Shown: piece after piece, positions 8,705 through 40,900 of the stretch | Position numbering within the stretch: the first letter of the stretch is position 1 | Layout: each line of letters starts with the position of its first letter | DNA from: Pythium myriotylum | Lineage: Eukaryota; Oomycota; Peronosporomycetes; Pythiales; Pythiaceae | Length of the DNA stretch: 64,000 nt | Reading direction: 5' to 3' | NCBI GenBank assembly: GCA_023091665.1 | Contig: JALJCQ010000015.1 | Location: 1-64,000, forward strand | The notes under the pieces: model-generated | Database searches by the model: none | Seen by the model: only the letters and a program-made list of their open reading frames with translations | Told to the model about the DNA's origin: nothing | Position numbers and translations under genes: made by a program

Positions 8705-8720
8705 CACGGTGGGTGTTTCC

Positions 8721-19322: not shown

Positions 19323-19395
19323 GCCCGTCTAGCTCAGTCGGTAGAGCGCACGACTCTTAATCGTGTGGTCGTGGGTTCGAGCCCCACGGTGGGTG
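19323..19395 (+). tRNA. tRNA-Lys(CTT), array copy 11
   Basis: Full copy identical to copy 1; Ser/Gly unit following an Asp unit. Confidence 0.95.
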
Positions 19396-20231: not shown

Positions 20232-20304
20232 GCCCGTCTAGCTCAGTCGGTAGAGCGCACGACTCTTAATCGTGTGGTCGTGGGTTCGAGCCCCACGGTG
20301 GGTG
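20232..20304 (+). tRNA. tRNA-Lys(CTT), array copy 12
   Basis: Full copy identical to copy 1; Ile/Asp unit. Confidence 0.95.
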
Positions 20305-21140: not shown

Positions 21141-21213
21141 GCCCGTCTAGCTCAGTCGGTAGAGCGCACGACTCTTAATCGTGTGGTCGTGGGTTCGAGC
21201 CCCACGGTGGGTG
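21141..21213 (+). tRNA. tRNA-Lys(CTT), array copy 13
   Basis: Full copy identical to copy 1; Ser/Gly unit. Confidence 0.95.
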
Positions 21214-22049
21214 TTTCCTTTTCCTTTTGCCCCTCTTTTCTTCACCCGTCGACACCATCCAGCCGTCGCTCTCCTCTTCGCCTTGCTTGCTCTTCCGTCG
21301 CCTCGCCTCGAAAATCCATCCTTTCTCTCTCCTTCGACCTTCCTGCCCTGCCGTTCTCGTACATCCTACCGCGTACCTCTTCCTGCTTTGGCGCTGCTTC
21401 ACACTCTTGTCAACGGACCTCACATCGGACAAAACGAGCACAGCGCACACCACACTACGCCGTAGCTCTCGACCACCTTCTCAGCCTCACAAAGTACAAG
21501 ACGATGAGTGAGAGCACGGCCGAGAGCAAGCTCGAGACCAAGAGCAAGCGCGAGCACAAGACCACGCCCGAGACCAAGACCAAGAGCAAGCCCGAGACCA
21601 AGGCCAAGACCAAAACCAAGACGGCTCCACTCCACGCCGCCACCTCGCGAGCGACGCCATCACTCCACACTGCGTGGTGCATCCGCCGACGCGATTGTCT
21701 CGATCGTCTCGATCGACCCCGGACCCGAACGACATTCGGACATTCGGGCATTCGGGCATTCGGACATTTGGTCAGGTGCGCTCGCGTGCGCACGTGACAG
21801 AGTGCGCGGGTGACTGTTGTTGTTGTTGTGAGGGTGCGAGAAGGAGATAGAAGTGAAGCAATGTTTGTGGGGTGTTTGTATTGTATTTGTGTGTGATGTT
21901 TGAAGGCGGGCGGCGGTAGCGTGGTGTTTGTGTGGTTGTTGGGGTGTGTTGTGTGGTGTGAGGGTGTGTGTGGGCGCGTTGTGGTGGTTGTGGCGTGTGT
22001 GTGTTTGTGCGTGGTATGTGTACTGAAATGTGATAGGTAGGTGGTGTAA

Positions 22050-22122
22050 GCCCGTCTAGCTCAGTCGGTAGAGCGCACGACTCTTAATCGTGTGGTCGTG
22101 GGTTCGAGCCCCACGGTGGGTG
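22050..22122 (+). tRNA. tRNA-Lys(CTT), array copy 14
   Basis: Full copy identical to copy 1; Ile/Gly unit. Confidence 0.95.
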
Positions 22123-22958
22123 TTTCCTTTTCCTTTTGCCCCTCTTTTCTTCACCCGTCGACACCATCCAGCCGTCGCTCTCCTCTTCGCCTTGCTTGCT
22201 CTTCCGTCGCCTCGCCTCGAAAATCCATCCTTTCTCTCTCCTTCGACCTTCCTGCCCTGCCGTTCTCGTACATCCTACCGCGTACCTCTTCCTGCTTTGG
22301 CGCTGCTTCACACTCTTGTCAACGGACCTCACATCGGACAAAACGAGCACAGCGCACACCACACTACGCCGTAGCTCTCGACCACCTTCTCAGCCTCACA
22401 AAGTACAAGACGATGAGTGAGATCACGGCCGAGAGCAAGCTCGAGACCAAGAGCAAGCGCGAGCACAAGACCACGCCCGAGACCAAGACCAAGAGCAAGC
22501 CCGAGACCAAGGCCAAGACCAAAACCAAGACGGCTCCACTCCACGCCGCCACCTCGCGAGCGACGCCATCACTCCACACTGCGTGGTGCATCCGCCGACG
22601 CGATTGTCTCGATCGTCTCGATCGACCCCGGACCCGAACGACATTCGGACATTCGGGCATTCGGGCATTCGGACATTTGGTCAGGTGCGCTCGCGTGCGC
22701 ACGTGACAGAGTGCGCGGGTGACTGTTGTTGTTGTTGTGAGGGTGCGAGAAGGAGATAGAAGTGAAGCAATGTTTGTGGGGTGTTTGTATTGTATTTGTG
22801 TGTGATGTTTGAAGGCGGGCGGCGGTAGCGTGGTGTTTGTGTGGTTGTTGGGGTGTGTTGTGTGGTGTGAGGGTGTGTGTGGGCGCGTTGTGGTGGTTGT
22901 GGCGTGTGTGTGTTTGTGCGTGGTATGTGTACTGAAATGTGATAGGTAGGTGGTGTAA

Positions 22959-23031
22959 GCCCGTCTAGCTCAGTCGGTAGAGCGCACGACTCTTAATCGT
23001 GTGGTCGTGGGTTCGAGCCCCACGGTGGGTG
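22959..23031 (+). tRNA. tRNA-Lys(CTT), array copy 15
   Basis: Full copy identical to copy 1; Ser/Gly unit, the last Ser type before E2. Confidence 0.95.
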
Positions 23032-23867
23032 TTTCCTTTTCCTTTTGCCCCTCTTTTCTTCACCCGTCGACACCATCCAGCCGTCGCTCTCCTCTTCGCC
23101 TTGCTTGCTCTTCCGTCGCCTCGCCTCGAAAATCCATCCTTTCTCTCTCCTTCGACCTTCCTGCCCTGCCGTTCTCGTACATCCTACCGCGTACCTCTTC
23201 CTGCTTTGGCGCTGCTTCACACTCTTGTCAACGGACCTCACATCGGACAAAACGAGCACAGCGCACACCACACTACGCCGTAGCTCTCGACCACCTTCTC
23301 AGCCTCACAAAGTACAAGACGATGAGTGAGAGCACGGCCGAGAGCAAGCTCGAGACCAAGAGCAAGCGCGAGCACAAGACCACGCCCGAGACCAAGACCA
23401 AGAGCAAGCCCGAGACCAAGGCCAAGACCAAAACCAAGACGGCTCCACTCCACGCCGCCACCTCGCGAGCGACGCCATCACTCCACACTGCGTGGTGCAT
23501 CCGCCGACGCGATTGTCTCGATCGTCTCGATCGACCCCGGACCCGAACGACATTCGGACATTCGGGCATTCGGGCATTCGGACATTTGGTCAGGTGCGCT
23601 CGCGTGCGCACGTGACAGAGTGCGCGGGTGACTGTTGTTGTTGTTGTGAGGGTGCGAGAAGGAGATAGAAGTGAAGCAATGTTTGTGGGGTGTTTGTATT
23701 GTATTTGTGTGTGATGTTTGAAGGCGGGCGGCGGTAGCGTGGTGTTTGTGTGGTTGTTGGGGTGTGTTGTGTGGTGTGAGGGTGTGTGTGGGCGCGTTGT
23801 GGTGGTTGTGGCGTGTGTGTGTTTGTGCGTGGTATGTGTACTGAAATGTGATAGGTAGGTGGTGTAA

Positions 23868-23940
23868 GCCCGTCTAGCTCAGTCGGTAGAGCGCACGACT
23901 CTTAATCGTGTGGTCGTGGGTTCGAGCCCCACGGTGGGTG
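23868..23940 (+). tRNA. tRNA-Lys(CTT), array copy 16
   Basis: Full copy identical to copy 1; Ile/Gly unit. Confidence 0.95.
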
Positions 23941-24776
23941 TTTCCTTTTCCTTTTGCCCCTCTTTTCTTCACCCGTCGACACCATCCAGCCGTCGCTCTC
24001 CTCTTCGCCTTGCTTGCTCTTCCGTCGCCTCGCCTCGAAAATCCATCCTTTCTCTCTCCTTCGACCTTCCTGCCCTGCCGTTCTCGTACATCCTACCGCG
24101 TACCTCTTCCTGCTTTGGCGCTGCTTCACACTCTTGTCAACGGACCTCACATCGGACAAAACGAGCACAGCGCACACCACACTACGCCGTAGCTCTCGAC
24201 CACCTTCTCAGCCTCACAAAGTACAAGACGATGAGTGAGATCACGGCCGAGAGCAAGCTCGAGACCAAGAGCAAGCGCGAGCACAAGACCACGCCCGAGA
24301 CCAAGACCAAGAGCAAGCCCGAGACCAAGGCCAAGACCAAAACCAAGACGGCTCCACTCCACGCCGCCACCTCGCGAGCGACGCCATCACTCCACACTGC
24401 GTGGTGCATCCGCCGACGCGATTGTCTCGATCGTCTCGATCGACCCCGGACCCGAACGACATTCGGACATTCGGGCATTCGGGCATTCGGACATTTGGTC
24501 AGGTGCGCTCGCGTGCGCACGTGACAGAGTGCGCGGGTGACTGTTGTTGTTGTTGTGAGGGTGCGAGAAGGAGATAGAAGTGAAGCAATGTTTGTGGGGT
24601 GTTTGTATTGTATTTGTGTGTGATGTTTGAAGGCGGGCGGCGGTAGCGTGGTGTTTGTGTGGTTGTTGGGGTGTGTTGTGTGGTGTGAGGGTGTGTGTGG
24701 GCGCGTTGTGGTGGTTGTGGCGTGTGTGTGTTTGTGCGTGGTATGTGTACTGAAATGTGATAGGTAGGTGGTGTAA

Positions 24777-24849
24777 GCCCGTCTAGCTCAGTCGGTAGAG
24801 CGCACGACTCTTAATCGTGTGGTCGTGGGTTCGAGCCCCACGGTGGGTG
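24777..24849 (+). tRNA. tRNA-Lys(CTT), array copy 17
   Basis: Full copy identical to copy 1; Ile/Gly unit. Confidence 0.95.
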
Positions 24850-25685
24850 TTTCCTTTTCCTTTTGCCCCTCTTTTCTTCACCCGTCGACACCATCCAGCC
24901 GTCGCTCTCCTCTTCGCCTTGCTTGCTCTTCCGTCGCCTCGCCTCGAAAATCCATCCTTTCTCTCTCCTTCGACCTTCCTGCCCTGCCGTTCTCGTACAT
25001 CCTACCGCGTACCTCTTCCTGCTTTGGCGCTGCTTCACACTCTTGTCAACGGACCTCACATCGGACAAAACGAGCACAGCGCACACCACACTACGCCGTA
25101 GCTCTCGACCACCTTCTCAGCCTCACAAAGTACAAGACGATGAGTGAGATCACGGCCGAGAGCAAGCTCGAGACCAAGAGCAAGCGCGAGCACAAGACCA
25201 CGCCCGAGACCAAGACCAAGAGCAAGCCCGAGACCAAGGCCAAGACCAAAACCAAGACGGCTCCACTCCACGCCGCCACCTCGCGAGCGACGCCATCACT
25301 CCACACTGCGTGGTGCATCCGCCGACGCGATTGTCTCGATCGTCTCGATCGACCCCGGACCCGAACGACATTCGGACATTCGGGCATTCGGGCATTCGGA
25401 CATTTGGTCAGGTGCGCTCGCGTGCGCACGTGACAGAGTGCGCGGGTGACTGTTGTTGTTGTTGTGAGGGTGCGAGAAGGAGATAGAAGTGAAGCAATGT
25501 TTGTGGGGTGTTTGTATTGTATTTGTGTGTGATGTTTGAAGGCGGGCGGCGGTAGCGTGGTGTTTGTGTGGTTGTTGGGGTGTGTTGTGTGGTGTGAGGG
25601 TGTGTGTGGGCGCGTTGTGGTGGTTGTGGCGTGTGTGTGTTTGTGCGTGGTATGTGTACTGAAATGTGATAGGTAGGTGGTGTAA

Positions 25686-25758
25686 GCCCGTCTAGCTCAG
25701 TCGGTAGAGCGCACGACTCTTAATCGTGTGGTCGTGGGTTCGAGCCCCACGGTGGGTG
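25686..25758 (+). tRNA. tRNA-Lys(CTT), array copy 18
   Basis: Full copy identical to copy 1; Ile/Gly unit. Confidence 0.95.
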
Positions 25759-26594
25759 TTTCCTTTTCCTTTTGCCCCTCTTTTCTTCACCCGTCGACAC
25801 CATCCAGCCGTCGCTCTCCTCTTCGCCTTGCTTGCTCTTCCGTCGCCTCGCCTCGAAAATCCATCCTTTCTCTCTCCTTCGACCTTCCTGCCCTGCCGTT
25901 CTCGTACATCCTACCGCGTACCTCTTCCTGCTTTGGCGCTGCTTCACACTCTTGTCAACGGACCTCACATCGGACAAAACGAGCACAGCGCACACCACAC
26001 TACGCCGTAGCTCTCGACCACCTTCTCAGCCTCACAAAGTACAAGACGATGAGTGAGATCACGGCCGAGAGCAAGCTCGAGACCAAGAGCAAGCGCGAGC
26101 ACAAGACCACGCCCGAGACCAAGACCAAGAGCAAGCCCGAGACCAAGGCCAAGACCAAAACCAAGACGGCTCCACTCCACGCCGCCACCTCGCGAGCGAC
26201 GCCATCACTCCACACTGCGTGGTGCATCCGCCGACGCGATTGTCTCGATCGTCTCGATCGACCCCGGACCCGAACGACATTCGGACATTCGGGCATTCGG
26301 GCATTCGGACATTTGGTCAGGTGCGCTCGCGTGCGCACGTGACAGAGTGCGCGGGTGACTGTTGTTGTTGTTGTGAGGGTGCGAGAAGGAGATAGAAGTG
26401 AAGCAATGTTTGTGGGGTGTTTGTATTGTATTTGTGTGTGATGTTTGAAGGCGGGCGGCGGTAGCGTGGTGTTTGTGTGGTTGTTGGGGTGTGTTGTGTG
26501 GTGTGAGGGTGTGTGTGGGCGCGTTGTGGTGGTTGTGGCGTGTGTGTGTTTGTGCGTGGTATGTGTACTGAAATGTGATAGGTAGGTGGTGTAA

Positions 26595-26667
26595 GCCCGT
26601 CTAGCTCAGTCGGTAGAGCGCACGACTCTTAATCGTGTGGTCGTGGGTTCGAGCCCCACGGTGGGTG
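26595..26667 (+). tRNA. tRNA-Lys(CTT), array copy 19
   Basis: Full copy identical to copy 1; Ile/Gly unit, the last before element E2. Confidence 0.95.
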
Positions 26668-27503
26668 TTTCCTTTTCCTTTTGCCCCTCTTTTCTTCACC
26701 CGTCGACACCATCCAGCCGTCGCTCTCCTCTTCGCCTTGCTTGCTCTTCCGTCGCCTCGCCTCGAAAATCCATCCTTTCTCTCTCCTTCGACCTTCCTGC
26801 CCTGCCGTTCTCGTACATCCTACCGCGTACCTCTTCCTGCTTTGGCGCTGCTTCACACTCTTGTCAACGGACCTCACATCGGACAAAACGAGCACAGCGC
26901 ACACCACACTACGCCGTAGCTCTCGACCACCTTCTCAGCCTCACAAAGTACAAGACGATGAGTGAGATCACGGCCGAGAGCAAGCTCGAGACCAAGAGCA
27001 AGCGCGAGCACAAGACCACGCCCGAGACCAAGACCAAGAGCAAGCCCGAGACCAAGGCCAAGACCAAAACCAAGACGGCTCCACTCCACGCCGCCACCTC
27101 GCGAGCGACGCCATCACTCCACACTGCGTGGTGCATCCGCCGACGCGATTGTCTCGATCGTCTCGATCGACCCCGGACCCGAACGACATTCGGACATTCG
27201 GGCATTCGGGCATTCGGACATTTGGTCAGGTGCGCTCGCGTGCGCACGTGACAGAGTGCGCGGGTGACTGTTGTTGTTGTTGTGAGGGTGCGAGAAGGAG
27301 ATAGAAGTGAAGCAATGTTTGTGGGGTGTTTGTATTGTATTTGTGTGTGATGTTTGAAGGCGGGCGGCGGTAGCGTGGTGTTTGTGTGGTTGTTGGGGTG
27401 TGTTGTGTGGTGTGAGGGTGTGTGTGGGCGCGTTGTGGTGGTTGTGGCGTGTGTGTGTTTGTGCGTGGTATGTGTACTGAAATGTGATAGGTAGGTGGTG
27501 TAA

Positions 27504-27519
27504 GCCCGTCTAGCTCAGT
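27504..27519 (+). pseudogene. Partial tRNA-Lys left of E2
   Basis: tRNA nt 1-16 stand at the exact 909-bp position where copy 20 would begin, then run into the E2 3' tail. The complete partner starts at 34862. Confidence 0.93.
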
Positions 27520-27701
27520 TTCAAGGCGTCTGTATTAACTAAAATTAATGCGACTATGACTACTCTAATCTACCTCGTCGATGAATATTATACACTTGAC
27601 TAGTATGTGACGAGGCTGGGAGCTTCAATTGTTGAGTTGTTGGTTGACTTCCGTTGGTCTTGACTGGTCTAGGTACTTGTTTTAGCACATCGGTTGGATA
27701 A

Positions 27702-27777
27702 CTGCGGTTAGCTCAAATGGTTATGAGCGTGGACCCCGATGTTGTCGGTCGCGCGGGTTCGATCCCCACCTCGGGGA
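27702..27777 (+). ncRNA. tRNA-like sequence in the E2 3' UTR (antisense)
   Basis: A TTAGCTCAAATGG A-box-like segment with a GCTC/GAGC D-stem is followed 30-odd bases later by GCGGGTTCGATCCCCAC, a T-arm with a perfect B-box core. The acceptor and anticodon stems pair poorly, so it is a degenerate tRNA or a tRNA-derived module rather than a functional tRNA. It is on the strand opposite to the element's ORFs. Confidence 0.55.
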
Positions 27778-27910
27778 GGTTTCTTGTGCTAGTGGTTTCG
27801 CTTGACTTCGGCCGCGAGGGTACGCTCTGATTCCAAAACGAGGTTGGTTTCGAGCCAGTATTGAAAGCAAGCACCCGCACTGAAGAAGAAGAAACGGCAG
27901 GAAATCGCTT

Positions 27911-30900
27911 TTATGCCAAAAAGCGAACTGCAAACAACCCCATGTTGTTTTGCAGGAAGGCACCGAAAGAAGGCGTAGACTGGAGACTTGACAACACAAC
28001 CTGAAGCGAAGCACGCTGCGCATCGTCGTACACACGTCGAAGACACGCACGCACATGAGCACCCACAGTCGTATACACCACACGCAGTGCTGCAATTGTT
28101 GGCATCGGGGACCGCCCGTTGAACAGTCGCCCATTGCGTTCAGTCCACAACAGGTGAAGCACCACAGCACGGATGACTTGCCACAGGTCTTGGATTTCTT
28201 CTGTGTGGTCCTTCCACACGGGAGCAACGCGGATGGCTTTACCGAAGACAATGTCGGTCCAGGAGGGTCGAGATGTGAAGAACACCGACATATCACGGAA
28301 GATGTCGCGCCATATCACAGTCGGCAGCACACACTCGAAGAACAAATGACGCGCCGTCTCCACTGAGTTGCAGCCTGGTCGAACACAGTACACGATGCCG
28401 GGATTTGCCACCGTCATGAACGAGAAGCGTGAGCGAGTCGGTAACAAGCCGTACGCCAAGCGGAACTGGAGGTCTTCGTATATCGGGAGAAGCAACACAC
28501 GAAGCCGCTTGCGTAGCTTGTTGAATCGGAGGACCACGTCTGTAGGCGCTCGAGGGTCGTGGAAGAACAGCGGATGCGTTCTCGTCGGCTCTGGAGCTTG
28601 CCACACCAGGCGGAGCAGTTGGGATCGTGGAATGCGCGGCACCCAGCACACACGGTCGTTGATCTTCACACCGACTCGCGGATGTTGGTGCTCAGGCGCC
28701 GTCGGTAGCACTCCATCGACTGGGACAGAGCACATTGTGCAGAGACGCCCGAAAACTTGCGTGGCTTCCTCGTGAAGCTTGAGCAGCCACGTGTACTGTC
28801 GATACGGGGTGATGGAGACTTGGGTGTAGTCGACATGTCGCTCAGCAAACTCGATCGCGCTCGGCCACTTGTCGCCTTCACCAGCGAAGTCACGAAGAGA
28901 TCGCAACTGAAAGACACGGGCAACTTGCCGACGGAAGCTTCGTTGCGGCTCTGCAATCATGCTGAGAGAACGATGCTGGGACGGCGTTGTGTCGGAACGG
29001 CTGGTTGGGAGGAACTGGAAGTTCTTGTCGCCATGGAACCAGATCGGTTGGTCGAGTGCAAACGCAAGACGGTCTTCTGGAGGGAGGTCGAGCCACGACA
29101 CCGGCCACTTGATAGCGTACCAAGTCTTCCAGGCCGCACGCCACCACGAAGAGAGCTGGTCCCACTCGATCGAGCCTCGATGCCGCCACGGACTGACGTA
29201 GAGAAAGTCGAGTGGCCTCTGCGGGCCCCACCGCGGAAGACTGATCCGCAGCAGCTCGACTCCTGCTACCGTCCAGTTGCCGGTCGTCGATGCCGAAGCT
29301 GCCGTGAACTGAAGCAGGAGCTGCAGTGACTGTCGCTTGAGCACACCGTCGAGACTCGGTACCTGCAGACCCCCAGACTCGCGCGGCAGGTTGACAAATT
29401 CGTTCGAGATCAACTGGACATGCCGAGCGTCGCGTTCGTAGCGCCGACTCAAGACGAACCGGTGTAGCGCGGCTTGCCACTTCTTCACTCGTCCTGGCGG
29501 CACAACAACGTGAGCAGTGTAGTGCCACAGACGTGAGAGCACCATGGTCTGGGCGACGAGGAGCCTGCCTTGGAGCGTCCGTGCGCGCCGAAACCACTGC
29601 TTGAACCCGTCAAAGAAGCGTCGATCGAGGTCTTCAACAATCAATTCCGTTGTGCGTCGTTGACCGAACAGGAGACCGAGGAACTTGACCGTGGAGTCTT
29701 CATCGAGAACCTGCACACCTGGTATGCCCGGGCATCGCCGCGTTCGATGCAGCGACATCAGCACACACTTGTTCACGTTGAGCTTGGCGCCGGAGCCTTG
29801 ACAGTATTCTTCGACCAACCCAAGTTGCGCCTCGACACCAGCGATAGAGCCCGACAGTAACGTCGAGTCGTCGGCGAAGAAAATACTCGCGACGGTGGCA
29901 TCCGCTGTCAAGCAGATCCCATGTTCTTCGTGCTGGCGGAGCAGGTTACCGAGTGGCTCGATAACAAGCAAGAACAGCAGCGCCGACAGCGGATCACCTT
30001 GCTTGACTCCGCGCGTTGGGCAGAGCGGGTCTTGCACGAATCCGTTGATCATGAGATGCGCGTGTGGTCGAGTGTACAGGAGCTTCACCCACCCCGAGAA
30101 CGCCCCGCCACATCCCATCCGATCGAGCACCTGAAACATGTAGTTCCAGTTGACGCGGTCGTACGCCTTCTCAAAGTCGAGGAACATGGCGTAGGCTTCC
30201 TCGTCGCGCGCGGTGACGAGGTCTTGCAGGTCACTCACGAAACGAACGTGGTGATGCAGAGAGCGACCACGCACGAAAGCCTTCTGGTCTTGGTGCACAA
30301 GCTTGGTCAGGAACAACTGCAGTCGGAAAGCGAGAACCTTTGACAGTGCCTTCACGTCGACACCCATCAAAGCAATTGGGCGATAGTTGCCTGGGTCAGC
30401 TCGGGATCCCTTCTTGTGCAGCAGACTGATCGCAGACTGGCGCTGACACCGAAGGAGCTCTCCTCGCTGAAGCTGGTAGTTGAACACGATCTCGAGGCAT
30501 TCACCGAAGACGTCAGGAGCCACTTGGTAGAACGAAGCTGGAAGCCCATCCATCCCGGGTGCAGACGATGCCCGCATCTTCTTGATTGCACTAGCAAGGT
30601 CCGCCGCTGTGATCGGAGCGTTGAGGATATTTTGCTCGTCTTCAGACAGTCGGCGGTCGATCGTGTCGAGCATCCGGTCAATCTGGCTCTGCTCAGGCTC
30701 TTGGACGACAACACCACCGCGCTCAACATCGCCCATGATACCGCCCCAGTGCTGACCGAAGACAGCCGCGATATCCGCGGGGTTGCTGGAGGCAGAGCCA
30801 TCTCGAAGCCGCACTTCCTCGATGCTGACTCTCCGCAAGGATCCGTCCAGCGGTCGAAAGAAGTACTTGGATGACATCTCCGCGTGTTGAGCCTGGAAGT

Positions 30901-32077
30901 CGAAAGCCGAGTCCTGGTTGTAAAGCCGCGCCGAGTTGATGCTGTCTTGGTATGCCGTCAGTGCGGTCTGGAACACCGTCTGCGCGCGATCGCTTCGCTC
31001 CGACCGGTATGCCGCAGCCGCGTGGGCAAGTGCCTGACGAGCTTCGGTGATGGCGGTCTCACCTTGACGCTTCAGCTTGCGCTGCAGAGCTTGAAGCTGA
31101 CGACGCATGTCCTTCTTCCACTTGTGCCACACCTTGCCCGGGTTGGAGGAGCGCCGTAACGCAGCAAGCACAGTCGTCGCTTCGCCTTGGATAGCTTCAA
31201 CGATATCGGGGAAGTCGAGCATCGCCGACTGGAAACGCCAGTACCCGTGGCCTTGAGGCTGGCTCATCGCGCGCAACACAACTTGATGTGCGAGATGGTC
31301 GCCGGCACCCTTGGGCTCAAAGTACGAGGAGTCACCGTATAGCGCGGTGCAGAAGTCCTCCGACATGAGGATGTAGTCGAGACGGTTGTGTCGAGGCTGT
31401 GGACCAGTGTAGACGCGTTCGTCGGGATGGTGGATTCGCCAGGCATCCACGACACCGAGTTGGGCCAACCACGCCACACACGCGTTACCGCCGGTCGTTC
31501 CTGTCGCCCTTGGATCCGACGCATCGACGAGGGGGTCAAGTGGCGTGTTGAGGTCACCGAGCACCAGGTGAGTCGCATTGTCTTCGAACACTTCGTACGG
31601 TAGCGCTTCGAAGAACCCCTTCTTCTCGAAGTTATCGACTGGCGCGTACACGTTGTGGATGTAGATCGGAGCACCGTTCGCGACGACCCGGACGACCAAG
31701 TAGCGGCCTTGAATAGTCAACGAAGACTGCTCACAAGCAGACTGAAAGCCGGGAAAGTCGGAGCGGAGCACTGTCATGACGCCACCCGATCGTGCAGCAA
31801 CGGCAACTGGACTGTGCGCGTTGGTGTCGCTGACGAAGAGGCGGTGTTGAAATCTGGTGTCATGGTGAAATTGGAGCGTTGCACGATGATGCGAGTCGCG
31901 CAGCTTGGTCTCTTGGACGCACGAGAGACTGTTCTTGATGAGCTGGTTCTCGATCAACAGGTGGCCGTTCTTCTTGATCCCGTTGGTGTTCACCGTCAAA
32001 AGACTGATGTTCTCCCACGAGACCTCGGCCGCGTCCGCCTCGACCGCTTTAGCAGTCGAGGCAGAGCGGTCCGGCAC
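27911..32077 (-). CDS. E2 ORF2: endonuclease and reverse transcriptase
   Basis: This 1388-residue protein is predicted to nick the tRNA target and copy element RNA by target-primed reverse transcription. The N-terminal apurinic-like endonuclease (about 23-270) shows TNG, QETK (E56), NVYAP (142-146), GDLN (174-177), RLDYI (232-236) and D260-H261. The reverse transcriptase (about 485-800) shows NYRPIAL (564), LDFEKAYD (633-640), GVKQGDPLS (690-698) and FADD (734-737). Near the C-terminus lie a C1231-x4-C-x7-H-x4-C zinc-binding motif and a WTERNGR motif, both typical of L1-clade elements; no RNase H is seen. The frame begins GTG directly after a TAG, and the first internal Met is near residue 101, inside the endonuclease. 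Translation therefore probably depends on +1 frameshifting or reinitiation from ORF1. Confidence 0.95.
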   Translation of the reverse strand: MPDRSASTAKAVEADAAEVSWENISLLTVNTNGIKKNGHLLIENQLIKNSLSCVQETKLRDSHHRATLQFHHDTRFQHRLFVSDTNAHSPVAVAARSGGVMTVLRSDFPGFQSACEQSSLTIQGRYLVVRVVANGAPIYIHNVYAPVDNFEKKGFFEALPYEVFEDNATHLVLGDLNTPLDPLVDASDPRATGTTGGNACVAWLAQLGVVDAWRIHHPDERVYTGPQPRHNRLDYILMSEDFCTALYGDSSYFEPKGAGDHLAHQVVLRAMSQPQGHGYWRFQSAMLDFPDIVEAIQGEATTVLAALRRSSNPGKVWHKWKKDMRRQLQALQRKLKRQGETAITEARQALAHAAAAYRSERSDRAQTVFQTALTAYQDSINSARLYNQDSAFDFQAQHAEMSSKYFFRPLDGSLRRVSIEEVRLRDGSASSNPADIAAVFGQHWGGIMGDVERGGVVVQEPEQSQIDRMLDTIDRRLSEDEQNILNAPITAADLASAIKKMRASSAPGMDGLPASFYQVAPDVFGECLEIVFNYQLQRGELLRCQRQSAISLLHKKGSRADPGNYRPIALMGVDVKALSKVLAFRLQLFLTKLVHQDQKAFVRGRSLHHHVRFVSDLQDLVTARDEEAYAMFLDFEKAYDRVNWNYMFQVLDRMGCGGAFSGWVKLLYTRPHAHLMINGFVQDPLCPTRGVKQGDPLSALLFLLVIEPLGNLLRQHEEHGICLTADATVASIFFADDSTLLSGSIAGVEAQLGLVEEYCQGSGAKLNVNKCVLMSLHRTRRCPGIPGVQVLDEDSTVKFLGLLFGQRRTTELIVEDLDRRFFDGFKQWFRRARTLQGRLLVAQTMVLSRLWHYTAHVVVPPGRVKKWQAALHRFVLSRRYERDARHVQLISNEFVNLPRESGGLQVPSLDGVLKRQSLQLLLQFTAASASTTGNWTVAGVELLRISLPRWGPQRPLDFLYVSPWRHRGSIEWDQLSSWWRAAWKTWYAIKWPVSWLDLPPEDRLAFALDQPIWFHGDKNFQFLPTSRSDTTPSQHRSLSMIAEPQRSFRRQVARVFQLRSLRDFAGEGDKWPSAIEFAERHVDYTQVSITPYRQYTWLLKLHEEATQVFGRLCTMCSVPVDGVLPTAPEHQHPRVGVKINDRVCWVPRIPRSQLLRLVWQAPEPTRTHPLFFHDPRAPTDVVLRFNKLRKRLRVLLLPIYEDLQFRLAYGLLPTRSRFSFMTVANPGIVYCVRPGCNSVETARHLFFECVLPTVIWRDIFRDMSVFFTSRPSWTDIVFGKAIRVAPVWKDHTEEIQDLWQVIRAVVLHLLWTERNGRLFNGRSPMPTIAALRVVYTTVGAHVRACLRRVYDDAQRASLQVVLSSLQSTPSFGAFLQNNMGLFAVRFLA
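32049..32077 (-). other. ORF1/ORF2 overlap, probable recoding or reinitiation site
   Basis: ORF1 and ORF2 overlap by 29 nt, with ORF2 in the +1 frame relative to ORF1. The ORF2 frame is closed immediately upstream by TAG (within CTAGGTGCC) and has no ATG in the overlap. The overlap is conserved in E3 (42041-42069) and E4 (56374-56402). It must be either a +1 frameshift site or a stop-and-restart signal around the ORF1 TAA. Confidence 0.7.
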
Positions 32078-34766
32078 CTAGTGTTGCGACGCCGTTGACA
32101 GCCGTAAGCTGGAGAACCGCTTCGTCGTCGGAGAAGTACAAGCCGCACGTGCGAAGATATTCGAGGTCGTCGAGAAGCTCGCCTTGCCACTGGATCTTCT
32201 CCCACACGGCAAAGATCTGTGCGCCCAAGTCGGAGCGCAGCAGTGCCAACAACACGTTGGGGTGGAGCAAACGACCGTTGAGTGCTGGAATCCACCCGAC
32301 TGGAGCTCCGGTAAGGCGCTGGATCCACATGTCGCTCTGGAAGATCTGCGGCGCCGTGCACATGAGCATCAACTCGAACAACGAGAGCGCGCACGTGGCT
32401 CGCAAGAGCGCCGACATCCGCTCATCACGATACCACCGTCCCGTCATCTTGAAGATGTCATTGCGATCCTTCGGCAGCTTCTCACCGTAGTGCGCAGCCC
32501 ACTTGTGCGCGAAGGTCGTACACGAGTTTGGATCAGTCGCGCTCAACACACGATTGATCATGTGGAGCTGTGCGAGTTCCTTGACGTTGCCGCTGAGGTC
32601 ACTCATCTCGCCGAGCAGCACAGAGTTGAACGCGAGCGGAGACTTCCCACCGGCAAGATGGCCGATCGTGTCCGGGTTGGCCGTGTTGCGGAGAGTCTTC
32701 CGAAGTGATTCCGCACGAACGTCCGCTGCAGCGATATGGTTCGACTGGAGCTGGAGGTCGGCGGTGGGCTCGGTCGTCTCGAGTTCGGCGAGGATCTCTT
32801 GGATTGACGTCGGTTCCTTCGTCTTCATGACCAGAGTGTGGTGCTTGGTCAAGAAGTGACTCGACTCCTTGCTGGTCTTGATCGTGTCGGGACCCTTGAC
32901 CTTGCGAGGCACGACCTGGAACCGCGGCAGGCTCGACTCGTTGAGCGCCGCATTGCAGCAGTCGAGTTCGAACTCGATGGAGTTCAACACTTCGAAGTAG
33001 TTGCTTGTCGCGATGCCTTGCACGGGCTTCGGTCGCGCCTTCTGTAACATGTCGGCAAAGTCGTCGGCGTAACGCGAGCGCTTGCCCTTGGACTTGGTCG
33101 ATTTGGTTCCGTTTTCCGGACGATCTGCGTTGGACGCGGACAGACCGAGCGGCGGTGGCGGCGGCGGCAGAGACTTGGCTCCAGGCTGCGGACTACCCGG
33201 AGGCGTCAACAGCGATCCCGCGTGCGTACCGACCGAGATGACGCTTGCAGAGTCTTGCGACTTGGACTCCGCTTGCGAGACACCGTTCTTCACCGCGTCT
33301 GCGTACGAAGTCGGAGCAGCCGGCTCGGACGGTTGCACTGGTGCTGGCGGAGTAGGCTGGTTGATCTTGTCCAAGTCCAAAGCGTGTGGCGACACCTGAC
33401 CGAAACCACGTCGCTGGGACGGGAACGCGGCGTCGCGCGCCAAAGCTGGGTACATGCGGTTGCCGAAGATGACTTGGTCGCACGTGAAGCCTTGCACACA
33501 CAGCGCTCGTGGGCACGTCGCACTTCGAAAGTAGACGCGCCACGTTGCTGTCGTCATTCCGGACGCGAGGTTGACGTCGCGGAACGTGTCGTAAATCGGC
33601 TCGCTGCCGATGTCGAAGAACGCGCGCAGAAGACCTTCGTTGTCGAAGTTGCTGTCGACGCTCGAGATGTCGATGTAGAAGCGATCGGCGAGGACGTCGA
33701 AGTCTTGGAACATGTACTTGCCACCGAGGATCTTGACTTCCTGACGCGCGAGGCGTTCGCACGCAGCACGTGACTTGACCTTGACGCGGATTTCTCCGCC
33801 ACGACCCTTGGAGATCTGGCCGAGTTCTTGAAGCTTGATCTGCTCGGTGACCACGGGGCTCCCGTTGTCCTTGAGAAAAGACGCCATGATCTTGTTGATG
33901 CCGGTACGCTCGAACGCGCGACCAGTGTCGATGGTCATGACGTAACGAGCGCGCGGGAGCTCGTACGGGCGCGCTTGTTCAACTGACGTGAAGAGCGAGG
34001 CCCAGTCGCCACCGTTCTCGTACAGCGCGTCAATCGCTTCGATATCCGCAGCACACGGTCGAGGCAGCACCACACGACTGGTCGCCGAGACGGGAGTTCT
34101 GTCACGGCGAATCTCGGTTGGACGGCGTAGAAGAGCACCAAGCGAAGGCGTCGCACCTGCCGCACTGGCAGGCGGTTGCTGAGCATCCGGAATCGGATCC
34201 GGGGTCGAATCAGTCGTAGTCGAGTCTTCAACAGTTGATTCGTCGGGGCTTGAGGCGAGACTGAGCTGGAGCGAGGTCGCCGCCATCATCAAGTCGTCGT
34301 CGTCATCGTCGCCACCGGAGACAGCAGTAGTCCCAGTGTTCGCGGGCGAGTCGGTCGAACTGGAAAGCGCAACGGAGATCTCGACTCCAGACGCCACCGG
34401 AGCGGAGCCTGTCACGAGCACCGTCATACCGGCACCGACATCCACGATGCGGGCGGTAGAGGCGGGTCCGTCGGCGGTTGAAGGAGCGTCGGCGTCGTCG
34501 ACCGCGGAGGTGGTGGTCGTGCCGGAGCTGACTGGGGCTTGCGCATTCACTGACTTCGAAGTCACGTGAGATACGGGCGCAGGCGTCGCAGAGTCGTCGG
34601 CAGTGTTACTGGCACCATCCAGACCAGATGGTGGCTCACAATGCGTGAGACTTCCCGAATCTTGTGCAGAGACGGGACGGAGCAGCTGCGCGGGAGGGTT
34701 CTCACCCACAAAGTCGAGGTCGGAGGGGGATGGGCGAGCCGAGTCGATCTGGTTCGCTGGCTTCAT
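32049..34766 (-). CDS. E2 ORF1: gag-like RNA-binding protein
   Basis: This 905-residue protein starts at ATG 34766, 95 nt from the element 5' end. Residues 1-230 are Ser/Thr/Ala/Pro-rich and disordered, with a six-Asp run at 153-158. Residues ~235-445 look folded; a segment beginning RFYIDISSVD (362 on) has the strand-helix spacing of an RRM-like RNA-binding domain. A SYADAV motif (487-492), seen near the RNA-binding region of many ORF1 proteins, is followed by a Pro-rich and basic linker and a C-terminal region rich in Leu/Ala helices. No CCHC zinc knuckle is present, which is unusual for some L1-like ORF1s. The expected role is to coat element RNA and accompany ORF2 protein; the RRM call is inference. 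Confidence 0.9.
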   Translation of the reverse strand: MKPANQIDSARPSPSDLDFVGENPPAQLLRPVSAQDSGSLTHCEPPSGLDGASNTADDSATPAPVSHVTSKSVNAQAPVSSGTTTTSAVDDADAPSTADGPASTARIVDVGAGMTVLVTGSAPVASGVEISVALSSSTDSPANTGTTAVSGGDDDDDDLMMAATSLQLSLASSPDESTVEDSTTTDSTPDPIPDAQQPPASAAGATPSLGALLRRPTEIRRDRTPVSATSRVVLPRPCAADIEAIDALYENGGDWASLFTSVEQARPYELPRARYVMTIDTGRAFERTGINKIMASFLKDNGSPVVTEQIKLQELGQISKGRGGEIRVKVKSRAACERLARQEVKILGGKYMFQDFDVLADRFYIDISSVDSNFDNEGLLRAFFDIGSEPIYDTFRDVNLASGMTTATWRVYFRSATCPRALCVQGFTCDQVIFGNRMYPALARDAAFPSQRRGFGQVSPHALDLDKINQPTPPAPVQPSEPAAPTSYADAVKNGVSQAESKSQDSASVISVGTHAGSLLTPPGSPQPGAKSLPPPPPPLGLSASNADRPENGTKSTKSKGKRSRYADDFADMLQKARPKPVQGIATSNYFEVLNSIEFELDCCNAALNESSLPRFQVVPRKVKGPDTIKTSKESSHFLTKHHTLVMKTKEPTSIQEILAELETTEPTADLQLQSNHIAAADVRAESLRKTLRNTANPDTIGHLAGGKSPLAFNSVLLGEMSDLSGNVKELAQLHMINRVLSATDPNSCTTFAHKWAAHYGEKLPKDRNDIFKMTGRWYRDERMSALLRATCALSLFELMLMCTAPQIFQSDMWIQRLTGAPVGWIPALNGRLLHPNVLLALLRSDLGAQIFAVWEKIQWQGELLDDLEYLRTCGLYFSDDEAVLQLTAVNGVATLGAGPLCLDC

Positions 34767-34861
34767 CTTCGTTCGACGGGAAGGCTGGGAGGCTGGTTGG
34801 CTGGTTACTTCGGCTGTTTGCTTGGATCGACTTGTGCTCGACGAGGCAAAACGAGAAGTGA

Positions 34862-34934
34862 GCCCGTCTAGCTCAGTCGGTAGAGCGCACGACTCTTAAT
34901 CGTGTGGTCGTGGGTTCGAGCCCCACGGTGGGTG
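34862..34934 (+). tRNA. tRNA-Lys(CTT), array copy 20
   Basis: Complete tRNA regenerated right of E2, preceded by ...GAGAAGTGA from the element 5' end. Ile/Asp unit. Confidence 0.95.
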
Positions 34935-35770
34935 TTTCCTTTTCCTTTTGCCCCTCTTTTCTTCACCCGTCGACACCATCCAGCCGTCGCTCTCCTCTTC
35001 GCCTTGCTTGCTCTTCCGTCGCCTCGCCTCGAAAATCCATCCTTTCTCTCTCCTTCGACCTTCCTGCCCTGCCGTTCTCGTACATCCTACCGCGTACCTC
35101 TTCCTGCTTTGGCGCTGCTTCACACTCTTGTCAACGGACCTCACATCGGACAAAACGAGCACAGCGCACACCACACTACGCCGTAGCTCTCGACCACCTT
35201 CTCAGCCTCACAAAGTACAAGACGATGAGTGAGATCACGGCCGAGAGCAAGCTCGAGACCAAGAGCAAGCGCGAGCACAAGACCACGCCCGAGACCAAGA
35301 CCAAGAGCAAGCCCGAGACCAAGGCCAAGACCAAAACCAAGACGGCTCCACTCCACGCCGCCACCTCGCGAGCGACGCCATCACTCCACACTGCGTGGTG
35401 CATCCGCCGACGCGATTGTCTCGATCGTCTCGATCGACCCCGGACCCGAACGACATTCGGACATTCGGACATTCGGGCATTCGGACATTTGGTCAGGTGC
35501 GCTCGCGTGCGCACGTGACAGAGTGCGCGGGTGACTGTTGTTGTTGTTGTGAGGGTGCGAGAAGGAGATAGAAGTGAAGCAATGTTTGTGGGGTGTTTGT
35601 ATTGTATTTGTGTGTGATGTTTGAAGGCGGGCGGCGGTAGCGTGGTGTTTGTGTGGTTGTTGGGGTGTGTTGTGTGGTGTGAGGGTGTGTGTGGGCGCGT
35701 TGTGGTGGTTGTGGCGTGTGTGTGTTTGTGCGTGGTATGTGTACTGAAATGTGATAGGTAGGTGGTGTAA
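34862..35770 (+). repeat. Single 909-bp tRNA-Lys unit 20
   Basis: One unit A lies between E2 and B3, Ile/Asp type, exactly 909 bp. Confidence 0.95.
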
Positions 35771-35786
35771 GCCCGTCTAGCTCAGT
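35771..35786 (+). pseudogene. Partial tRNA-Lys left of B3
   Basis: tRNA nt 1-16 then the element tail; partner tRNA at 36581. Confidence 0.92.
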
Positions 35787-36580
35787 TTCAAGGCGTCTGT
35801 ATTGCTGCACTAGCATTTACGACTGACTTCTAACTGCTCGCTAATCCCGTGCGGGTTTTATGTTGCTAAGGTTCGGTTGAGTCTCGTGGTTGGCTGGTCG
35901 GTTTGTGCTGAGAGGATGAATCCTTGCGTCATGGTTCGTTGGGTTGTTGAGGTTGTTGTTCTGTTGTCGTTGAAGCTGGGTACTGGGTTAACTTGACCTT
36001 CATTTGCTGGTTTGCTGGTATGTTGATGCTGGGTGAGTTGAGTGTTGGTTGGGTTGAAGCTGGGTTGGCTGAATGCCGGTTGGGTTGATGCTGGGTTGCT
36101 TGAATGCTGGTTGGGTTGAGGTTGGTGTCGGTGAGTGCTGGTTGGGTTGAGGTTGGTGTCGGTGAGTGCTGGTTGGGTTGAGGTTGGTGTCGGTGAGTGT
36201 TGGTTACCCAACGGTCTCGTGAGTGAAGGTTGGTGGCTGGGTGCCGTGAGTGTTGGTCACGGCGTGGGTTGATCAGCGGTGGGTTGATATTAGAGTCGAC
36301 CGGGTGGCCGAGCTCTGGCGCGCGCTCTCCATGTGGTGAATGTCGGCTCTCCCGATGAAGCCGAAGGAAGCACGCATGGGATGCCGACTGGTCGGCGCGG
36401 TGGCGGCAGCGTCCCGATGCCAAGCTTCTTGCGCTTGGTCTTGGCTCTCGCAGCACCCTTGGTCATGGCGACTGGGTGTGGAGAGGGTCGGGGGTGATGG
36501 GCTGGCAGCTGGGCTGGGTGCTTGGACTGGACACTTCTGGACTTGGTCACTTGAGGGGTAGCGAGCAAATTGCGAAGTGA
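35786..36580 (-). mobile_element. Non-autonomous retroelement B3
   Basis: 810-bp module, nearly identical to B1, with six minisatellite units, the 18-bp E-type tail and GA at the 5' junction. It carries the MTKG ORF with Ala at residue 5 and a TTGTTG variant (near 35950) that is shared with B4-B6. Confidence 0.88.
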
Positions 36581-36653
36581 GCCCGTCTAGCTCAGTCGGT
36601 AGAGCGCACGACTCTTAATCGTGTGGTCGTGGGTTCGAGCCCCACGGTGGGTG
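36581..36653 (+). tRNA. tRNA-Lys(CTT), array copy 21
   Basis: Complete tRNA right of B3. Ser/Gly unit. Confidence 0.95.
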
Positions 36654-37489
36654 TTTCCTTTTCCTTTTGCCCCTCTTTTCTTCACCCGTCGACACCATCC
36701 AGCCGTCGCTCTCCTCTTCGCCTTGCTTGCTCTTCCGTCGCCTCGCCTCGAAAATCCATCCTTTCTCTCTCCTTCGACCTTCCTGCCCTGCCGTTCTCGT
36801 ACATCCTACCGCGTACCTCTTCCTGCTTTGGCGCTGCTTCACACTCTTGTCAACGGACCTCACATCGGACAAAACGAGCACAGCGCACACCACACTACGC
36901 CGTAGCTCTCGACCACCTTCTCAGCCTCACAAAGTACAAGACGATGAGTGAGAGCACGGCCGAGAGCAAGCTCGAGACCAAGAGCAAGCGCGAGCACAAG
37001 ACCACGCCCGAGACCAAGACCAAGAGCAAGCCCGAGACCAAGGCCAAGACCAAAACCAAGACGGCTCCACTCCACGCCGCCACCTCGCGAGCGACGCCAT
37101 CACTCCACACTGCGTGGTGCATCCGCCGACGCGATTGTCTCGATCGTCTCGATCGACCCCGGACCCGAACGACATTCGGACATTCGGGCATTCGGGCATT
37201 CGGACATTTGGTCAGGTGCGCTCGCGTGCGCACGTGACAGAGTGCGCGGGTGACTGTTGTTGTTGTTGTGAGGGTGCGAGAAGGAGATAGAAGTGAAGCA
37301 ATGTTTGTGGGGTGTTTGTATTGTATTTGTGTGTGATGTTTGAAGGCGGGCGGCGGTAGCGTGGTGTTTGTGTGGTTGTTGGGGTGTGTTGTGTGGTGTG
37401 AGGGTGTGTGTGGGCGCGCTGTGGTGGTTGTGGCGTGTGTGTGTTTGTGCGTGGTATGTGTACTGAAATGTGATAGGTAGGTGGTGTAA
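36581..37489 (+). repeat. Single 909-bp tRNA-Lys unit 21
   Basis: One unit A of Ser/Gly type lies between B3 and E3. It has a private change in the G/T-rich part (GGCGCGCTG near 37418 instead of GGCGCGTTG). Confidence 0.95.
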
Positions 37490-37505
37490 GCCCGTCTAGC
37501 TCAGT
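37490..37505 (+). pseudogene. Partial tRNA-Lys left of E3
   Basis: tRNA nt 1-16 then the E3 tail; partner tRNA at 44854. Confidence 0.93.
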
Positions 37506-37687
37506 TTCAAGGCGTCTGTATTAACTATATTTAATACGACTATGAGTACTCTAATCTACCTCGTCGATGAATATTATACACTTGACTAATGTGTCACGAG
37601 GCTGGGGGCTTCAGTTGTTGAGTTGGTGGTCGACTTCCGTTGGTCTTGACTGGTTTAGGTACTTGTTTTAACATGTCGGTTCAATAG

Positions 37688-37761
37688 CTGCGGGTAGCTC
37701 AGACGTTTAAGAGTGTGGATCCGAAGTTACTGGTCGCGGGTTCGAACCCCGGCTCGGACAC
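37688..37761 (+). ncRNA. tRNA-like sequence in the E3 3' UTR (antisense)
   Basis: GGTAGCTCAGACG with a GCTC/GAGT D-stem is followed by GCGGGTTCGAACCCCGG, a near-perfect T-arm and B box. The anticodon arm does not fold cleanly and the acceptor stem only partly pairs. It is at the same place as the E2 tRNA-like sequence but differs at many positions, so the module is homologous or was replaced. Confidence 0.55.
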
Positions 37762-37902
37762 TTGCCTTGTGGTCTAAAATTCTGGTGCTTGACTTCGGTC
37801 GCGCGGGTCTCCTCTGGCTTGTGTTCGGGACGAACTCGAACTGCGATTGGTTGAAAACCCTCCACAGCCAAGAAGAAGAAGAAGAATCGGCACGAAATTC
37901 TT

Positions 37903-40900
37903 TTATGCCAAAAAGCGAACTGCAAACAACCCCATGTTGTTTTGCATGAAGGCACCAAGCGAAGGCGTAGACTGGAGACTTGACAACACAACCTGAAGCG
38001 AAGCACGCTGCACATCGTCGTACACACGTCGAAGACACGCACGCACATGAGCACCCACAGTCGTATACACCACACGCAGTGCTGCAATTGTTGGCATCGG
38101 GGACCGCCCGTTGAACAGTCGCCCATTGCGTTCAGTCCACAACAGGTGAAGCACCACAGCACGGATGACTTGCCACAGGTCTTGGATTTCTTCTGCGTGG
38201 TCCTTCCACACGGGAGCAACGCGGATGGCTTTACCGAAGACAATGTCGGTCCAGGAGGGTCGAGATGTGAAGAACACCGACATATCACGGAAGATGTCGC
38301 GCCATATCACAGTCGGCAGCACACACTCGAAGAACAAATGACGCGCCGTCTCCACTGAGTTGCAGCCTTGTCGAACACAGTACACGATGCCGGGATTTGC
38401 CACCGTCATGAACGAGAAGCGTGAGCGAGTCGGTAACAAGCCGTACGCCAAGCGGAACTGGAGGTCTTCGTATATCGGGAGGAGCAACACACGCAGACGC
38501 TTGCGGAGCTTGTTGAATCGGAGGACCACGTCAGTAGGCGCTCGAGGGTCGTGGAAGAACAGCGGATGCGTTCTCGTCGGCTCTGGAGCTTGCCACACCA
38601 GGCGGAGCAGTTGGGATCGTGGAATGCGCGGCACCCAGCACACACGGTCGTTGATCTTCACACCGACTCGCGGATGTTGGTGCTCAGGCGCCGTCGGTAG
38701 CACTCCATCGACTGGGACAGAGCACATTGTGCAGAGACGCCCGAAAACTTGCGTGGCTTCCTCGTGAAGCTTGAGCAGCCACGTGTACTGTCGATACGGG
38801 GTGATGGAGACTTGGGTGTAGTCGACATGTCGCTCAGCAAACTCGATCGCGCTCGGCCACTTGTCGCCTTCACCAGCGAAGTCACGAAGAGATCGCAACT
38901 GAAAGACACGGGCAACTTGCCGACGGAAGCTTCGTTGCGGCTCTGCAATCATGCTGAGAGAACGATGCTGGGACGGCGTTGTGTCGGAACGGCTGGTTGG
39001 GAGGAACTGGAAGTTCTTGTCGCCATGGAACCAGATCGGTTGGTCGAGTGCAAACGCAAGACGGTCTTCTGGAGGGAGGTCGAGCCACGACACCGGCCAC
39101 TTGATAGCGTACCAAGTCTTCCAGGCCGCACGCCACCACGAAGAGAGCTGGTCCCACTCGATCGAGCCTCGATGCCGCCACGGACTGACGTAGAGAAAGT
39201 CGAGTGGCCTCTGCGGGCCCCACCGCGGAAGACTGATCCGCAGCAGCTCGACTCCTGCTACCGTCCAGTTGCCGGTCGTCGATGCCGAAGCTGCCGTGAA
39301 CTGAAGCAGGAGCTGCAGTGACTGTCGCTTGAGCACACCGTCGAGACTCGGTACCTGCAGACCCCCAGACTCGCGCGGCAGGTTGACAAATTCGTTCGAG
39401 ATCAACTGGACATGCCGAGCGTCGCGTTCGTAGCGCCGACTCAAGACGAACCGGTGTAGCGCGGCTTGCCACTTCTTCACTCGTCCTGGCGGCACAACAA
39501 CGTGAGCAGTGTAGTGCCACAGACGTGAGAGCACCATGGTCTGGGCGACGAGGAGCCTGCCTTGGAGCGTCCGTGCGCGCCGAAACCACTGCTTGAACCC
39601 GTCAAAGAAGCGTCGATCGAGGTCTTCAACAATCAATTCCGTTGTGCGTCGTTGACCGAACAGGAGACCGAGGAACTTGACCGTGGAGTCTTCATCGAGA
39701 ACCTGCACACCTGGTATGCCCGGGCATCGCCGCGTTCGATGCAGCGACATCAGCACACACTTGTTCACGTTGAGCTTGGCGCCGGAGCCTTGACAGTATT
39801 CTTCGACCAACCCAAGTTGCGCCTCGACACCAGCGATAGAGCCCGACAGTAACGTCGAGTCGTCGGCGAAGAAAATACTCGCGACGGTGGCATCCGCTGT
39901 CAAGCAGATCCCATGTTCTTCGTGCTGGCGGAGCAGGTTACCGAGTGGCTCGATAACAAGCAAGAACAGCAGCGCCGACAGCGGATCACCTTGCTTGACT
40001 CCGCGCGTTGGGCAGAGCGGGTCTTGCACGAATCCGTTGATCATGAGATGCGCGCGTGGTCGAGTGTACAGGAGCTTCACCCACCCCGAGAACGCCCCGC
40101 CACATCCCATCCGATCGAGCACCTGAAACATGTAGTTCCAGTTGACGCGGTCGTACGCCTTCTCAAAGTCGAGGAACATGGCGTAGGCTTCCTCGTCGCG
40201 CGCGGTGACGAGGTCTTGCAGGTCACTCACGAAACGAACGTGGTGATGCAGAGAGCGACCACGCACGAAAGCCTTCTGGTCTTGGTGCACAAGCTTGGTC
40301 AGGAACAACTGCAGTCGGAAAGCGAGAACCTTTGACAGTGCCTTCACGTCGACACCCATCAAAGCAATTGGGCGATAGTTGCCTGGGTCAGCTCGGGATC
40401 CCTTCTTGTGCAGCAGACTGATCGCCGACTGGCGTTGGCACCGAAGAAGCTCGCCTCGCTGAAGTTGGTAGTTGAACACGATCTCCAGGCATTCACCGAA
40501 CACGTCAGGAGCCACCTGGTAGAAGGCAGCTGGAAGCCCGTCCATCCCGGGCGCTGACGATGCTCGCATCTTCTTGATTGCACTGGCGAGGTCCGCCGCT
40601 GTGATCGGAGCGTTGAGGATATTTTGCTCGTCTTCAGACAGTCGGCGGTCGATCGTGTCGAGCATCCGGTCAATCTGGCTCTGCTCAGGCTCTTGGACGA
40701 CAACACCACCGCGCTCAACATCGCCCATGATACCGCCCCAGTGCTGACCGAAGACAGCCGCGATATCCGCGGGGTTGCTGGAGGCAGAGCCATCTCGAAG
40801 CCGCACTTCCTCGATGCTGACTCTCCGCAAGGATCCGTCCAGCGGTCGAAAGAAGTACTTGGATGACATCTCCGCGTGTTGAGCCTGGAAGTCGAAAGCC

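Follow-up and report, generated by a model that had tools for sequence, protein, structure and literature searches.

The first 64,000 nucleotides (nt) of contig C15 of the oomycete Pythium myriotylum (hereafter the window) carry a tandem array of tRNA-Lys genes that is interrupted by an L1-like long interspersed nuclear element (LINE) and by a short element, called S, with which the LINE shares its 3′ end. A search of the 58.7-Mb genome (55 contigs, designated C) makes it very probable that the LINE, which has been recently active, and the S element insert by target-primed reverse transcription (TPRT) into box A of tRNA genes. Box A is an internal promoter element of RNA polymerase III (Pol III).

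Three copies of the LINE in the window (E2, E3 and E4) have a length of 7.34–7.35 kb, lie antisense to the tRNA genes and contain two open reading frames (ORFs), ORF1 of 905 amino acids (aa) and ORF2 of 1388 aa. The LINE features are as follows:

27504..27518, + strand: left target copy of E2, tRNA-Lys nt 1–15, on the 3′ side of the element
27519..34861, − strand: E2, full-length LINE (3′ end at 27519; 5′ end at 34861 or 34860, abutting a complete tRNA)
32049..34766, − strand: E2 ORF1, 905 aa, overlapping ORF2, without Pfam match
27911..32077, − strand: E2 ORF2, 1388 aa, with an endonuclease of the apurinic/apyrimidinic (APE) type, a reverse transcriptase and a C-terminal CCHC motif
34862..34934, + strand: complete tRNA-Lys beside E2, its nt 1–15 being the second target copy
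37505..44853, − strand: E3, full-length LINE, 97.8% identical to E2
51844..59186, − strand: E4, full-length LINE, 99.4% identical to E2
63547..64000, − strand: E5, 3′ part of another LINE, running past the window end
1829..8642, − strand: E1, older LINE copy, 94.6–95.4% identical to E2, without the last ~390 bp and with a deletion of ~140 bp inside ORF1

At four sites (27504, 37490, 51829 and 63532) nt 1–15 of the tRNA are joined to the LINE 3′ end, and the complete tRNAs at 34862, 44854 and 59187 adjoin LINE 5′ ends, which agrees with the common breakpoint and antisense orientation that an earlier note on this DNA had seen in E2–E5. E1 lacks its 3′ end and can therefore be checked at the 5′ junction only. 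Eight non-autonomous S elements of ~0.8 kb occupy the same tRNA-Lys site, also antisense. When the two flanks of an insertion were joined (45 + 45 bases, at nt 15), the uninterrupted repeat was restored letter for letter at all six sites tested (E2–E4 and S1–S3), and ARAGORN calls the gene beside the element as complete. The earlier idea of a duplication that leaves a complete tRNA holds in this respect, although the duplication, then described as long, is about 15 bp. In a tRNA-Tyr array on C3, the genes are spaced at 1,111 bp except for a single interval of 8,469 bp; the excess over one unit, 7,358 bp, corresponds to the LINE together with its duplication in the window. Ala and Tyr tRNAs have a base other than T at nt 16, and their junctions too read CTCAG-TTTCAAGG, so the nick lies after nt 15 or one base earlier and not after nt 16; the breakpoint is thus the single position proposed before, but its placement after nt 15–16 had to be narrowed. 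Where both insertion ends were read, the duplication measures ~12–18 bp in all but one case discussed below, with box A values of 15 bp (Asn), 15 bp (Ile-AAT), 16 bp (Tyr) and 15–16 bp (Lys).

The 17-nt 3′ end occurs at 220 places of the genome with at most one mismatch, and at none in the control. Exact 3′ ends number 217 (LINE-type 11 + 33, S-type 69 + 104; four patterns, with a backwards control of 0 in each), and the flanks of 213 of them were read (LINE-type 44, S-type 169). Box A of a tRNA gene was found in 207 of these 213 flanks (42/44 for LINE-type and 165/169 for S-type ends), compared with ~0.1 expected by chance under a simple base-frequency model, and the motif TRGCTCAG is present in 199. 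Slippage at box A junctions was observed in four LINE-type and two S-type cases. Seventeen distinct tRNA 5′ 16-mers are hit, which identifies box A and not tRNA-Lys as the target. The specificity for tRNA-Lys suggested in the earlier note therefore had to be given up, and the flanks, for which the note had asked whether all are tRNA-Lys nt 1–16, are not restricted in this way; its placement of the target inside the tRNA body stands, and the many unrelated flanks that would have refuted it are not seen. Complete tRNAs following the element 5′ ends belong to 11 amino-acid types in the fetched loci and the window; besides Lys, ARAGORN reported Thr (three anticodons), Ala (two), Cys, Asn, Ile (two), Phe, Pro, Trp, Met and Tyr with intron. 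The Pro case is known from its 5′ junction only. A tRNA-Pro carrying GTCTAGTGG also adjoins a LINE 5′ end.

Which tRNAs receive an element depends on the target sequence. Matches to TRGCTCAGNNGGTAGAGC (TRGCTCAG-type) number at least 394, all of them complete genes with the same D-loop length. The TGGCCGAG class, which we take to be Leu/Ser tRNAs, was found in none of the 213 flanks despite its 96 places in the genome, 31 of which lie within a stretch of C11 whose Thr and Trp genes are hit. The TNGTNTAGTGGTTAGNA class has 287 places (control 1) and a single flank (TAGTCTAG, a tRNA-Glu on C16). All these class figures are gene counts and not independent events.

Six of the 213 flanks are not box A: five are in or within 6 nt of tRNA genes and one is box-A-like outside a tRNA. 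They comprise box B of a tRNA-Ala (L043, GGGTTCA^A, read on the 3′ side only); the opposite strand of a tRNA-Glu (L045, CTATCCTAA^CC, duplication ~16 bp); two sites on C23 about 6 nt upstream of tRNA-Ala(CGC) (L047 and L089, TATCAG^TTG, duplications of 15 and 16 bp); a site 3 nt upstream of tRNA-Val (L046/L067, GGTCA^AG, duplication 12–15 bp); and a site outside any tRNA (L044, GCTGCTCAG^AGG), where a truncated 30-bp insert is flanked by an 18-bp duplication. The L044 insertion shows TPRT, and its target, a mimic of box A, suggests direct recognition of sequence. TCA^G and TCAG^ are not distinguishable at CTCAG sites alone; at the Val, box B and antisense Glu sites the G of GTTTCAAGG can be element-derived, so the nick may be TCA^G.

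We propose the following course of insertion. The predicted APE-type endonuclease would nick the tRNA-sense strand at TRGCTCA^G or TRGCTCAG^ (nt 14–15), probably choosing the site itself rather than through Pol III factors, and the 3′-OH at the nick would prime cDNA synthesis from the RNA 3′ end ...GACGCCUUGAAA(C). The opposite strand would presumably be cut afterwards near nt −1/+1, ~15 nt away, so that nt ~1–15 become duplicated (mostly 15–16 bp). One side of the insertion would then keep the old upstream flank with nt 1–15, and the other would receive a complete tRNA in which both internal promoter boxes are present and which faces the element 5′ end head to head; the duplication would in this way restore both the gene and the target. 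According to PMC5911963, tRNA promoters are internal, hence the complete copy should retain its promoter, and the gene may well continue to be expressed.

Two further observations concern the RNA that is copied. Extra GTTTCA units are present at six junctions, three of which, on C1, may be copies of a single event. At C23:901420-903200 (L090, L091) two S elements joined by tRNA-Phe nt 1–15 are inside a tRNA-Ala gene, with tRNA-Ala nt 1–15 on one side and a complete tRNA-Ala on the other; this arrangement fits a retrotransposed read-through dimer, and it could also have come from recombination between loci. A tentative extension, possible rather than probable, is that the specificity is partly self-templated. 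Antisense tRNA nt 1–15 would be kept just past the 3′ end of each copy, and a read-through RNA would have UGAGCUA after GAAAC, able to pair with the nicked box A primer TAGCTCA. Each copy would then carry a guide to every tRNA with such a box A, and insertion would renew both guide and target. The extra GTTTCA units fit the re-annealing of a TCA-ended primer to UGA beside GAAAC in the RNA, as from read-through, and the C23 dimer is what would be expected if the RNA reads through the retained tRNA piece.

Several points weigh against the main proposal, insertion into box A by TPRT. One S element in the box A of a tRNA-Ala(CGC) has a duplication of 36 bp (L064/L088), and a LINE 5′ junction (L060, C13:1584080-1584280) has nine extra bases before tRNA-Met; together they indicate some freedom in the position of the second cut. 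The LINE 5′-end pattern, found at 39 places with 29 in the control, is less specific than the 3′ pattern, and a tRNA start follows at 21 of the 39 (once after nine extra bases). The guessed 5′ positions of L061, L063 and L072 held no tRNA. Amplification of arrays has raised the S counts and part of the LINE counts, and the 213 flanks stand for a far smaller number of independent events. Insertions 3–6 nt upstream of a tRNA (two flanks on C23, one on C43) and in box B (one flank) are also compatible with some guidance by Pol III factors. As a separate observation, the gene beside the LINE at L055 (C18:626310-626460) has a normal box A and was not called as a tRNA by ARAGORN; it is possibly a decayed tRNA gene.

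These last flanks bear on the strongest rival, in which the Pol III machinery (TFIIIC/TFIIIB) sets the target, as with TRE5-A, and the breakpoint reflects the reach of a tethered endonuclease. Five of the six exceptional flanks, including those in box B and upstream, are in a tRNA gene or at most 6 nt away, which speaks for this rival. However, the TGGCCGAG-class genes are also Pol III genes and are absent from all 213 flanks, even though 31 copies share a stretch of C11 with the hit Thr and Trp genes, and the box A mimic at L044 lies outside any tRNA. We regard Pol III targeting on its own as unlikely, and a mixture of sequence choice and Pol III targeting as possible. Choice of the site by sequence, as proposed above, also has to be set against a single insertion spread by unequal crossing-over of the array. 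The array spacers are almost identical and the runs of S elements look duplicated (S4 and S5 have a common 5′ variant), but the nearest relatives of E2, E3 and E4 lie on different contigs and in different tRNA genes. In a comparison of 14 copies across as much as 4.6 kb, the divergence of E2 is 0.02–0.07% from copies in genes for Ile-TAT, Cys and Ala (C18), compared with 0.50% from E4 and 2.69% from E3 within its own array, and a tree places E2, E3 and E4 in separate groups, each of which also holds copies residing in other tRNA genes. Since LINE similarity does not follow the host tRNA, E2–E4 are independent insertions; copies that share an array resemble each other less than copies from different tRNA genes do, and the segmental duplication that would have undone the earlier note is not what is found. 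With 17 tRNA 5′ sequences hit, a single-insertion origin is highly improbable overall and is refuted for E2–E4, while the S runs and E5 remain candidates. That the location in tRNA genes reflects nothing but their abundance (hundreds of copies in the genome) has practically no chance of being correct and is refuted by the census, in which the same box A nucleotide recurs at a rate far above the random expectation.

Recent activity follows from the at least 34 ORF2 copies scored, which are 98–100% identical, with a stop in two. Changes between E2 and E3 fall mostly on third codon positions (5, 6 and 29 by position), as for a protein that would be under selection. In ORF2 an APE-type endonuclease is followed by a reverse transcriptase in one frame, as in L1-type ORF2 (RVT_1 2.9e-33; Exo_endo_phos, with a cut-off of 24.5 bits, 24.3 in E2 and 28.3 in E1). 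The closest solved structure is human L1 ORF2p (3.3e-57 alone, E 6.9e-106 as a profile) with R2 far behind, in line with the two-ORF L1-like element first recognized in the window, and the predicted endonuclease fold (pLDDT 85.6) has its best match in L1-EN (Foldseek E 1.5e-13). N30, E56, D175, N177, D234, D260, H261 and FADD 734-737 are invariant in 16 sequences (alignment A1), with catalytic roles that we take from L1; the CCHC residues C1231, C1236, H1244 and C1249 are likewise invariant in 16 sequences. Target site duplications, the absence of long terminal repeats and occasional 5′ truncation (L044) characterize a non-LTR element. The ORF2 of E5 extends outside the window to C15:68105 and scores equal to that of E2. 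Among 66 ORF2-related proteins, those named by organism are from oomycetes (Globisporangium splendens, 52–66% where aligned, Peronospora matthiolae, Lagenidium giganteum and Aphanomyces, besides one name that breaks off at 'Plasmo') and many others are unnamed metagenome proteins. ORF1 is 53% identical to a Pythium insidiosum protein across 58% of the query; its predicted fold (mean pLDDT 60) had no PDB match at E 0.001, and the best hits, tandem-RRM proteins at 1.2e-3, were not used. In IMG/VR, no ORF2 relative was confirmed among 13 stretches with alignment A1. The junction pattern gave two IMG/VR contigs, neither with a tRNA or an ORF2 relative, and these were rejected as chance.

The S elements of the window are the following:

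10476..11270, − strand: S1, carrying the last 18 nt of the LINE
12195..12959, − strand: S2
35786..36580, − strand: S3
46687..49101, − strand: S4–S6, three head to tail, with tRNA nt 1–15 alone between them
61020..62622, − strand: S7–S8, two head to tail

They cut the tRNA-Lys starts at 10461, 12180, 35771, 46672, 47482, 48292, 61005 and 61815. S elements are ~0.76–0.79 kb long and have the 3′ end AATACAGACGCCTTGAAA in common with the LINE and a similar 5′ start (CACTTC); blastn found no similarity between S elements and E2 or E1. A hairpin is predicted directly before the shared tail in five of five end variants (15 fetched or window copies), the inner stem differing in the S form. Head-to-tail S runs spaced by tRNA nt 1–15 alone occur at 46672-49102 and 61005-62622 of the window and also at ~2511000-2593000 of C4, and S4 and S5 have an identical 5′ variant; such runs may result either from serial insertion into the renewed target or from unequal crossing-over. 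Two core promoter motifs of oomycetes, INR (YCAYTYY) and FPR (MWTTTNC) (PMC3599244), are matched by the S 5′ end, and the LINE 5′ end matches INR only. Because of these matches, both elements look like RNA polymerase II transcripts that would start at the first bases of the element.

The S 5′-end pattern was found at 192 places of the genome, compared with 4 in the control, and 64 of the 71 exact places listed are followed directly by a tRNA start. The remaining seven comprise two with ~120 bases before tRNA-Cys, the antisense Glu site, three on C17 and one on C29. At L041 (C14:1594440-1594800) and C46:50927 it is this stretch of ~120 bp, perhaps a template jump, that separates the S 5′ end from a complete tRNA-Cys. 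Rfam gave no family above threshold for the L041 stretch, and nothing except tRNA above the gathering score for the odd 5′ flanks. The C17 places and one-mismatch places on C1 adjoin long ORFs, as expected if the S 5′ end resembles an ordinary oomycete INR+FPR promoter.

The array that hosts these insertions is given by one further feature:

8643..64000, + strand: tandem array of tRNA-Lys(CTT) with a 909-bp unit, extending past the window end, 29 complete tRNAs in the window

Each 909-bp unit has one tRNA-Lys(CTT). The window has 41 tRNA-Lys starts, 29 complete (all called by ARAGORN) and 12 cut (4 by the LINE and 8 by S elements), and 29 spacers are within 0–2 of the 836 bases of the reference spacer. 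Tandem tRNA arrays are known from Phytophthora infestans (PMC9584435). A mixed array of Thr, Trp and TGGCCGAG-type genes extends over C11:1613000-1728000, with CTCAG-type genes alone seen hit. Window positions 1-1100, near the contig end, hold a direct repeat of ~600 bp with a run of 26 C, possibly an assembly or subtelomeric feature.

Several known elements resemble the LINE in part. Mutsu, Keno and Dewa are members of the Tx1 clade. This clade is target-specific with an APE-derived endonuclease (PMC4640811), features that the present LINE shares, and Dewa is located in a tRNA-Leu spacer (PMC3706591); no box A insertion by Tx1-clade elements, these three included, was found in the literature searched. 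Nor was any APE-type LINE inside tRNA box A found there; subscription papers and Repbase Reports were outside its scope, so that the element may have been described before. Outside the Tx1 and R1 clades, target-specific elements use a restriction-like endonuclease, and the non-LTR elements NeSL-1_TV, LIN15_SM and LIN25_SM are specific for tRNA-Pro, tRNA-Arg and tRNA-Glu genes (PMC4640811), with one tRNA given for each; the present LINE uses many tRNAs, and its endonuclease is of the APE type and not the restriction-like type of NeSL-related elements (LIN, Utopia). Utopia, an oomycete LINE in the U2 snRNA gene (PMC4640811), is also site-specific for a multicopy small-RNA gene, but differs in its target and its NeSL-related reverse transcriptase. 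The DNA transposons Dada-tIA, Dada-tIB and Dada-tY_PMar have their insertion site within tRNA genes at TAGCTC, which belongs to box A (PMC3706591); they share the target with the LINE, but as DDE transposons they make a six-base duplication, keep each family to a tRNA of its own and move without reverse transcription.

We describe here a natural LINE whose landing site in many tRNA families is a conserved motif of the internal promoter and whose duplication rebuilds a complete gene. Such a site is a multi-copy and apparently low-harm home, and the element may be able to multiply within essential genes while leaving them intact. The notion that tRNA genes are safe harbours becomes testable at a single nucleotide, and an APE endonuclease with apparent box A specificity would be on offer. 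The TRE5 and TRE3 elements of Dictyostelium, likewise L1-type, find harmless sites at a wide range of tRNA genes (PMC5911963, PMC5391098), TRE5-A inserting at a distance outside the gene with the help of Pol III factors (PMC3706591). They settle ~47 bp upstream or 40–150 bp downstream of the tRNA gene, whereas the LINE of P. myriotylum enters the gene itself, at box A, in 207 of 213 flanks.

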